Source: an uncultured Flavobacteriales bacterium (GTDB lineage Bacteria; Bacteroidota; Bacteroidia; Flavobacteriales_G; Salibacteraceae). From it: 64,000 nucleotides of DNA. The notes beneath the pieces are model-generated. The model was not told the DNA's origin. It made no database searches and worked only from the letters and a program-made list of their open reading frames with translations. Position numbers and translations under genes: made by a program. The DNA is taken from assembly GCA_937899835.1 (NCBI GenBank), contig CALCCE010000265.1, forward strand, positions 1 through 64,000, written 5' to 3'. This document shows positions 56,518 through 58,157 of the stretch, in pieces; the first letter of the stretch is position 1; each line of letters starts with the position of its first letter.

Positions 56518-57900
56518 ATGGAGGCACTGGAACAACTCTACCGAAGCCTGAAGCAACGCAAGCGCCCCGAAGATGTGGCAGAATTGATATTGCAAGTGCT
56601 CAAAGGGCAGCTGTCAAGCAGCGAAAAAAGCTTATTACGCCAGGTGGCCAACGGTGCGCTTAGCAAACGGCTATTGGGTTACACCTCCATGAACCAACAC
56701 TTTGCGCAAGCGGTTGGGGCCCAGAAGCAAGTAAACAAAGCCCTGGAACTCTTTCAGTTGTCAGCGGTGCGCTATGACGGCACAAAGCCTGAAGAAATCC
56801 GAGAACTCATCCAGTATTGCAACGGCATTTTGCATAAAACGCCTGGCTTGAACGACTTTATCGACAACCGTTTGAACAAAGAGCAACGGGAAGCGGAAGG
56901 GATCGAACTTTCCAAAAGACAATACAACAAGCTTTGGCGCATGACGGTGCGGTTGGAAGAAAAGTTGGAGCGCTATGAACGAAGTCGTCGGTATTTGAGC
57001 CTGCAGCAGATTGCCAAAAATGGCCTGGTCCGGGAAATCACCCGCAAGGATTTTATGCAGGACGCCAATACCGCTTGTTTTGTGGCCTACATGACCGCTC
57101 GACTGAATCTGCGCAGCGAATTTACGATCGACGGCCAACAGCAGCCCTTCGATAACGTGTGCGAAATGTTGCTCATGCGGTGCATGGGGCAAACCGTTAT
57201 TCGGAAAGCCACATGGTTCGGAAGCAAAAAGCTGAGCCAGGAGGGCCAACCTACTGCCGGCTGGTTGGCCATCGCTCATGTTTACCCCAGCCGCAGAGTG
57301 CTGGATCATTTACCTGAACACGACCTGGGCTATCTCATGGGGCGGTGGACCGCGTTGTTGCAAGAGATTGCGCGTGAACTGGGCCGCTTGTGGGAGACGA
57401 ACGACATTGACCGCAAAACCATGATTGTGCAACGGGGCAACAATTCGAGTGCCTGGAATGCAGCTGCCGGTGCGTGGAACAAGGCGCGTGAACATTGGAT
57501 CGACCTTTTGTACGCTACTGGCCAGGAGGGCTTGCTGGACGATTTGTGCTTCGGTAAGGTGCTGCGCCTCATGGCGGGTGATGTTGCCTTCTGGCACCAG
57601 TCGGTAGGCGGATGCCTTGATGCCAATACGGCGGTGTGGAATGCCCTGCCCCTGCCTTGGGAGGTATTTGACGCTGGGGAAACCTGCACCCGTGATATGG
57701 TAGAAAAGGCTTGTGAAAAAGCTGGCCTGGTGGCTGCTACCTCAGGATGGACCGGTACGCGCGTTCGTACTGCAGTTCCTTTTAGGCATAGCCCTGAGTT
57801 GGTGCACGGTGTCGCTGTATCCAGTCCTTTTTTAGCAAAGGTTTTGCGGCAAAATCGATATTTTTCGGGTAAGAATGCCCGTTCTAATCATCCTGAATGA
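56518..57900 (+). CDS. 460-residue protein of no recognised family, linked to tRNA-like RNAs
   Basis: A 460-residue protein without signal peptide or membrane segment. It is mainly helical: an N-terminal part (about 1-135) with YRSLKQRKRPEDVAELILQV and Lys/Arg-rich turns, and a helical region at about 140-180 (YNKLWRMTVRLEEKLERYER). The C-terminal part (about 265-460) has many Trp and His residues (IVQRGNNSSAWNAAAGAWNK, DVAFWHQSVGGCLDANTAVW, GWTGTRVRTAVPFRHSPELV). Cysteines lie at CGGxxx-type sites but no clear zinc motif is seen. It resembles no family I can name; it lacks the TROVE pattern and the von Willebrand A motif of Ro60. The stop codon is three bases before the first of three tRNA-like sequences, so a common transcript is very likely. 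An RNA-binding role for the protein is inferred from this alone. Confidence 0.75.
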   Translation: MEALEQLYRSLKQRKRPEDVAELILQVLKGQLSSSEKSLLRQVANGALSKRLLGYTSMNQHFAQAVGAQKQVNKALELFQLSAVRYDGTKPEEIRELIQYCNGILHKTPGLNDFIDNRLNKEQREAEGIELSKRQYNKLWRMTVRLEEKLERYERSRRYLSLQQIAKNGLVREITRKDFMQDANTACFVAYMTARLNLRSEFTIDGQQQPFDNVCEMLLMRCMGQTVIRKATWFGSKKLSQEGQPTAGWLAIAHVYPSRRVLDHLPEHDLGYLMGRWTALLQEIARELGRLWETNDIDRKTMIVQRGNNSSAWNAAAGAWNKAREHWIDLLYATGQEGLLDDLCFGKVLRLMAGDVAFWHQSVGGCLDANTAVWNALPLPWEVFDAGETCTRDMVEKACEKAGLVAATSGWTGTRVRTAVPFRHSPELVHGVAVSSPFLAKVLRQNRYFSGKNARSNHPE

Positions 57901-57903
57901 AAT

Positions 57904-57975
57904 GATCGTTTAGCTCAGCGGTAGAGTTCCGGCTCGATACCCGGAGGGACGCAGGTTCGAATCCTGTAACGATCA
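57904..57975 (+). tRNA. tRNA-like sequence 1 (CGA in the anticodon loop)
   Basis: GATCGTT/AACGATC closes an acceptor stem of 7 bp. D-arm GCTC-AGCGGTA-GAGT and T-arm GCAGG-TTCGAAT-CCTGT are normal. The anticodon stem TCCGG/CCGGA holds an 8-base loop CTCGATAC, not the normal 7, with no position-26 linker. CGA would mean Ser, but there is no long variable arm. Bases AAT before the stem and ATT after it could extend the helix around an AAC bulge. It starts three bases after the 460-residue gene. Probably not a translating tRNA. Confidence 0.7.
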
Positions 57976-57985
57976 ACATTCGGGT

Positions 57986-58078
57986 GCCATCATGGCTTCA
58001 CCGTGGTGAAGTGGTAACACGCCTGGCTCAGGTCCGGGTAAACGCAGGTTCGAATCCTGTCGGTGTGGTCATGGTGGC
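57986..58078 (+). ncRNA. tRNA-like sequence 2 with an extended acceptor helix
   Basis: The core 57997-58068 has D-arm GTG-AAGTGGTAA-CAC, anticodon stem CCTGG/CCGGG with loop CTCAGGT (CAG, Leu), variable TAAAC and T-arm GCAGG-TTCGAAT-CCTGT. The acceptor helix continues outward: GCCATCATGGCTTCACCG (57986-58003) pairs with CGGTGTGGTCATGGTGGC (58061-58078) over 18 positions with three wobbles and one mismatch. A tRNA-Leu would need a long variable arm, which is missing. No CCA follows. The long helix would be a poor substrate for normal 5' and 3' processing, so it may be kept as a stable RNA. Confidence 0.65.
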
Positions 58079-58082
58079 TATT

Positions 58083-58157
58083 CTCTACATAGCTCAGTGG
58101 TAGAGCACCCGGCTCTTAACCGGGAGGACACAGGTTCGAGTCCTGTTGTGGAGACCA
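58083..58157 (+). tRNA. tRNA-like sequence 3 (CTT, Lys-type anticodon, encoded CCA)
   Basis: Acceptor CTCTACA/TGTGGAG, positions 8-9 TA, D-arm GCTC-AGTGGTA-GAGC, anticodon stem CCCGG/CCGGG with 7-base loop CTCTTAA (anticodon CTT), variable AGGAC, T-arm ACAGG-TTCGAGT-CCTGT, discriminator A and CCA. The fold is complete, and this one could be a functional tRNA-Lys(CTT), though a C-G first pair with an encoded CCA is unlike typical Bacteroidota tRNA-Lys. The D and T arms are almost the same as those of sequences 1 and 2, so the three share an origin. Confidence 0.75.

Follow-up and report, generated by a model that had tools for sequence, protein, structure and literature searches.

What does a protein of no recognised family do with three aberrant tRNA-like RNAs encoded immediately behind its gene? 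The question arises from a 64,000-nucleotide stretch of DNA from an uncultured Flavobacteriales bacterium (positions 1 to 64,000 of contig CALCCE010000265.1; hereafter the window), where a first-pass annotation had proposed that a 460-residue protein and its RNAs belong together as a protein with dedicated tRNA mimics. We find the pairing of gene and RNAs to be constant, deep and mobile. It joins a single protein family to a single class of RNAs, both of them new and the RNAs under selection, and we regard it as probable that the two make up a dedicated protein–RNA module, presumably a ribonucleoprotein with tRNA-mimic RNAs. The locus comprises the following features, R1 being a covariance model of the RNA class built in this analysis:

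56518..57900, + strand: protein gene, an open frame of 460 aa ending in a TGA stop at 57898-57900; new family, pI 9.2, fold predicted to be mostly helical
57903..57977, + strand: tRNA-like RNA 1 (ARAGORN; Rfam tRNA 52.3 bits; R1 70.8 bits)
57996..58070, + strand: tRNA-like RNA 2 (ARAGORN; Rfam tRNA 47.2 bits; R1 68.0 bits)
57986..58078, + strand: predicted long closing helix around RNA 2 (minimum-energy fold z = -3.7; outward pairing count)
58083..58157, + strand: tRNA-like RNA 3 (ARAGORN; Rfam tRNA 73.9 bits; R1 89.3 bits)

ARAGORN and Rfam agree with the annotation in placing the three RNAs in tandem directly past the stop codon, 2 bases separating it from RNA 1. All three exceed the Rfam tRNA threshold, and they are the only ARAGORN tRNA predictions in the whole window.

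Linkage of gene and RNAs

tRNA-like RNAs adjoin the gene at all 32 loci examined (58 RNAs, one to four per locus), which span three bacterial phyla and phage-like contigs. The annotation had named homologues mostly devoid of adjacent tRNA-like sequences as the outcome that would count against it; every locus has them instead. Detection combined ARAGORN, Rfam and R1, as ARAGORN alone missed the RNAs of three loci (L007, L019, L021). Across the 23 loci measured, the nearest RNA lies -10 to 125 bp from the gene. In L012-L014 gene and RNA overlap, bases 8-10 of the RNA being the TAG stop codon of the gene. The one gene piece that lacks an RNA, L028, covers just the C-terminal half and sits at the end of a contig; the N-terminal half in the same assembly (L027) has an RNA upstream, and we read the two as one split gene. 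Three Streptomyces plasmids (W02-W04) carry one tRNA each and a Hymenobacter plasmid carries two, all beside the gene and none elsewhere. For eight gene-bearing records in which tRNAs are few or were counted, multiplying the probabilities of such proximity gives ~8e-15, and the adjacency is not due to chance.

The linkage also holds in reverse. A DNA pattern for the enlarged anticodon loop, blind to the protein, matched 7 of 2.9 million viral contigs, and all 7 carry the gene; a looser version matched 12, comprising 9 gene carriers and 3 contigs with ordinary 7-nt-loop tRNAs. Enlarged-loop RNAs were thus found only with the gene. Five pattern-matching contigs without it were set aside, their matches being ordinary 7-nt-loop tRNAs, four of them Met-type and the fifth bearing the anticodon CCC. 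Because the patterns were derived from module RNAs, very different RNAs would be undetectable by them.

These data bear on the simplest alternative, namely that the RNAs are ordinary tRNAs that merely neighbour a tRNA-handling enzyme or are processed by it. Window RNA 3 is indeed an almost perfect tRNA-Lys, and some phage loci lie within large tRNA arrays. This explanation is nonetheless contradicted by the two-way linkage over three phyla, by plasmids that have no tRNAs except module RNAs, and by a signature shared by module RNAs and absent from ordinary tRNAs (tRNA-Met apart, see below), and we consider it very improbable.

Homologues that share 31-50% identity with the window protein are spread over Bacteroidota, Myxococcota, plasmids of actinobacteria and phage-like contigs; carriers include Minicystis rosea, plasmids of Hymenobacter, Streptomyces and Miltoncostaea, 16 IMG/VR contigs, further Myxococcota and genomes of the window's own class. 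They are rare and scattered, being present in 1 of 100 (the window's own genome), 2 of 395 (own genome included), 3 of 397, 3 of 284 and 7 of 184 sampled genomes. Plasmid searches with the L018 and L015 proteins returned the seven records already known, and two query proteins found no homologue among INPHARED phages. The protein tree is deep, and the window clusters with Hymenobacter and L030 with strong support (100/99).

The gene usually precedes its RNA, with at least one RNA lying upstream of it in seven viral contigs, the Miltoncostaea plasmid and one Myxococcota genome. The annotation's suggestion of a shared transcript is likely to be right for the window, because the RNAs begin 2 bases past the stop codon, but across loci the order of gene and RNA is not fixed. 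Scanning the window for consensus promoters gave no hit. At L019, where both RNAs are 5' of the gene, an 11/12 sigma-70-type site sits just upstream of RNA 1, and in Streptomyces a TTGACC...ATGAT-like stretch can be seen by eye ahead of the RNA. The genes flanking the window locus are unrelated and on the opposite strand (upstream, an aminotransferase class V gene and PhzF; downstream, an unmatched open reading frame followed by a gene for an AraC-type regulator), which leaves the protein and its RNAs as a unit of their own.

No conserved third gene, conserved neighbours or defence island was seen around the examined loci, many of which are metagenomic contigs. In some Streptomyces plasmids an Imm35/YrhB immunity-like gene lies directly 3' of the RNA (L004 7665-8219, L006 7709-8275, L008 7665-8219), its place being taken in L005 by a DUF6000 gene. 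A DUF805b RNA motif scores above the Rfam threshold at the window's edge (22-56, - strand).

The RNA class and its anticodon arm

All 58 RNAs share a signature in the anticodon arm, GG-CUC(3-11 nt)-CC: the loop measures 6-14 nt, always opens with CUC and is closed by G30-C40 and G31-C39, with U33 and C34 invariant (the arms of L003 RNA 1 and L104 RNA 2 were assigned by eye). About 38 of the 58 depart from the 7-nt loop of ordinary elongator tRNAs, with loops of 6, 8, 9 or 14 nt (two reassigned by eye); the third or so that remain have 7-nt loops, window RNAs 2 and 3 among them. The annotation's account of the individual anticodons was accurate. RNA 1 has an 8-nt loop, CUCGAUAC, which ARAGORN reports with the 4-base 'anticodon' cgat; RNA 2 has the loop CUCAGGU, a Leu-type CAG anticodon and a short variable arm in place of the long leucine-type one; and RNA 3, with the loop CUCUUAA and an encoded ACCA end, is a near-perfect tRNA-Lys(CUU). 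At other sites the same genome encodes an ordinary tRNA-Lys(UUU) and an ordinary tRNA-Leu(CAG) of ~85 nt.

Other features proved less distinctive. The 18-bp acceptor helix claimed for RNA 2 is long at the window, where the minimum-energy fold extends the stem outward to 12 + 5 bp around a single U-U mismatch; an 18-position helix was rejected as a general feature, since nearly all other RNAs extend by 0-5 pairs and no other locus showed a helix of such length. The pair -1:73 covaries (25 of 31, against 14.7 expected), giving most module RNAs an 8-bp acceptor stem, and its pairing rate was likewise discarded as a hallmark, since 23 of 33 ordinary tRNAs of the window's genome pair there too. A missing CCA fared no better, as only 4 of those 33 encode one.

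Several lines of evidence indicate that the RNAs are maintained as structured molecules. In an alignment of 32 of them, 96.3% of base-pair cells are standard and two-sided changes number 167, against 44 in shuffles that leave the relatedness among the RNAs in place; sliding the pairing partners along the alignment destroys the signal. Most module RNAs retain the tRNA tertiary core, and the triple 8-14-21 changes from U-A-A to A-U-G in L004, L006, L020 and L027. Between the Streptomyces plasmids compared, the RNA is identical at 72-73 of 73 positions, the spacer at 45-66 of 78, and the downstream DNA is unrelated; purifying selection therefore acts on the RNA.

The rest of the tRNA shape is treated more loosely. 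Acceptor sequence varies freely, as do the first pair and the discriminator. Forty-six RNAs, the three of the window among them, have the D-loop GG and T-loop UUC, and both are gone in 10, at loci L007, L021, L022 and L102-L104, where the anticodon arm is kept. Elbow-less RNAs of this kind, with an anticodon arm and without D-loop GG and T-loop UUC, lie at:

L102, 1276-1426
L103, 2962-3111
L104, 2937-3089
L022, 1186-1343

As the elbow can be lost and the acceptor is free while the anticodon arm persists, the arm is the constant part of the class, and the parts used in charging and in forming the elbow are dispensable. Such a pattern is hard to square with ordinary decoding, and most module RNAs probably have no normal decoding role.

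Might the RNAs instead be true tRNAs with enlarged anticodon loops, used to read codons that are shifted or four bases long or to put in an unusual residue, with the protein charging, modifying or delivering them? The 8- and 9-nt loops resemble those of frameshift suppressors, U33 and C34 are invariant, and the tertiary core is mostly retained, even through the compensated 8-14-21 swap. Loop size alone does not exclude translation, because yeast mitochondria decode with a natural tRNA whose anticodon loop has 8 nt (PMC7609411). Against such a recoding cassette, the discriminator and first pair are free to vary, one loop has 14 nt, the elbow is missing in 10 RNAs, and the protein matches no synthetase or translation factor by family or fold: searches of Pfam, NCBIfam and PDB, the last by sequence and fold, found no class I or class II aminoacyl-tRNA synthetase catalytic fold. 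We therefore judge recoding unlikely.

In a control tRNA set, GG-CUC...CC occurs outside the module only in tRNA-Met. One of these control tRNAs has an initiator-type GGG/CCC stem and CUCAUAA loop, and one module RNA has exactly that loop (L016 6602-6673, compared with L040, the ordinary tRNA-Met of the window's genome). Judged from these motifs, module RNAs could conceivably be linked to initiator tRNA or to the P site of the ribosome.

Further tRNA-related oddities accompany some loci. The 815-kb Miltoncostaea oceani plasmid (L007), which has 39 tRNA matches, encodes the module RNA with the 14-nt loop, and two peptidyl-tRNA hydrolase genes and an RNA ligase gene lie near the module. A 330-kb viral contig with 58 tRNA matches (L013) has, at 8727-9337, a tmRNA gene with a group I intron match following at its 3' end. 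In a 436-kb viral contig (L018), a tRNA with a 6-nt anticodon loop and a 2-base 'anticodon' lies at 1760-1833, 3 kb from the module and outside its RNA class.

The protein and a proposed mechanism

The annotation's description of the protein as belonging to no recognised family was borne out. Scans of the window protein with Pfam, NCBIfam, PADLOC and PHROGs found no relative, 21 family members gave no Pfam or PHROGs match, and a PDB sequence search found no relative either. The AlphaFold2 model is confident (pLDDT 88.3, pTM 0.87) and mostly helical. Foldseek against PDB gave nothing significant (best E 0.93), and with no match among solved structures the modelled fold appears to be new. Among predicted structures, the model matched an Edafosvirus protein (A0A3G4ZSE3, E 3e-15) and a Yasminevirus protein (A0A5K0U9D9, E 5e-13), each with probability 1.00; both are uncharacterised, and the matches cover most of the chain at 16-17% identity. 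Family proteins are mostly basic, and their invariant residues, which include R141, R199, D212, S310, N314, R324, K347, R350, D355, E427 and H430, would suit either an active site or a surface for binding RNA.

We propose a compact, horizontally spreading module consisting of one new-fold protein and one to four dedicated tRNA-shaped RNAs. Binding between the two is most probably direct and through the anticodon arm, the protein reading its loop-proximal part (G30-C40, G31-C39 and C32-U33-C34) and not the acceptor end. The RNAs seem to have arisen from C34 tRNAs of a Lys-CUU-like type and would since have specialised away from ordinary decoding, and the complex may act on tRNA or in tRNA's place. 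Our leading guess for its purpose is a regulated mimic or decoy in a tRNA-centred conflict between cells and mobile elements; taken alone, this conflict role is a tentative possibility that falls short of probable. A bolder idea, which we think improbable, is that the tRNA-shaped scaffold displays its variable anticodon loop (CUC plus 3-11 variable bases) as an interchangeable determinant of specificity; the several RNAs of a locus could then steer one protein to different RNA targets in bacteria, plasmids, phages and possibly giant viruses of eukaryotes.

Three observations weigh against our proposal of a protein with tRNA mimics. Some RNAs, such as window RNA 3, resemble usable tRNAs; U33 never varies, a trait shared with tRNAs that decode; and the conflict role has no backing from known defence neighbours or a PADLOC match.

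Comparison with known systems

Type III toxin-antitoxin systems (ToxIN-like) are mobile, self-contained pairs of a protein gene and a structured RNA, and the module is likewise self-contained and mobile. By analogy, the protein could be a toxic RNA-acting enzyme restrained by the tRNA-like RNAs, a reading to which the rare, scattered occurrence of the unit on plasmids and phages, and invariant polar residues that could make an active site, lend some weight. However, the RNAs of one locus are diverse tRNA shapes unlike each other, not tandem repeats of one unit; the RNA usually follows the gene; and a ToxN-like nuclease fold was matched by none of Pfam, PADLOC and Foldseek. A toxin-antitoxin pair thus seems quite unlikely.

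The annotation had also drawn a parallel with Ro60 and Y RNA, and had floated amino-acid carriers, decoys or guides as roles that the RNAs might have. Bacterial Ro60 (Rsr, with a TROVE domain) and its Y RNA or YrlA resemble the module in placing a protein gene beside small RNAs of tRNA-like shape, and the tRNA-like domain of YrlA has been proposed as an anticodon-nuclease inhibitor (PMC7790460). In the module, by contrast, the RNA is tRNA-shaped throughout and carries its signature in the anticodon arm. Homology was rejected: there was no TROVE match in 21 family members or the window's genome, and no Ro60 among the Foldseek PDB matches shown. The module works like Ro60/Y RNA at most in outline and is not a member of that system.

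Phage tRNAs with anticodon-loop changes evade anticodon nucleases (PMC10264068); they share with the module RNAs the tRNA shape, the altered anticodon loop and the residence on mobile elements, whereas the module always comes with a dedicated protein, has an enlarged loop with a constant start, and is carried by hosts as well. Non-canonical tRNAs such as allo-tRNAs and the 8-nt-loop mitochondrial tRNA-Thr break the rules of a 7-bp acceptor and a 7-nt loop (PMC7609411), as module RNAs do; these are used in decoding, and we found no comparable dedicated companion protein described for them. Neither protein nor RNA has a described relative in the libraries searched, and the literature searched, which left most subscription journals outside its scope, gave no precedent for an enlarged-loop tRNA with a companion protein and no description of this pair.

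The RNAs form a class that can be recognised as such and that tRNA-finding programs list, wrongly, as odd tRNAs, and the GG-CUC...CC signature together with the gene offers a concrete handle for probing some of the odd tRNAs borne by phages and plasmids. If our proposal is right, the module would join Ro60/Y RNA as a further protein–RNA system based on the shape of tRNA, one that occurs in hosts, plasmids and phages. Its structural counterparts, the Edafosvirus and Yasminevirus proteins, come from giant viruses of protists and differ widely from the module protein in sequence, and their predicted structures share its fold across most of the chain.
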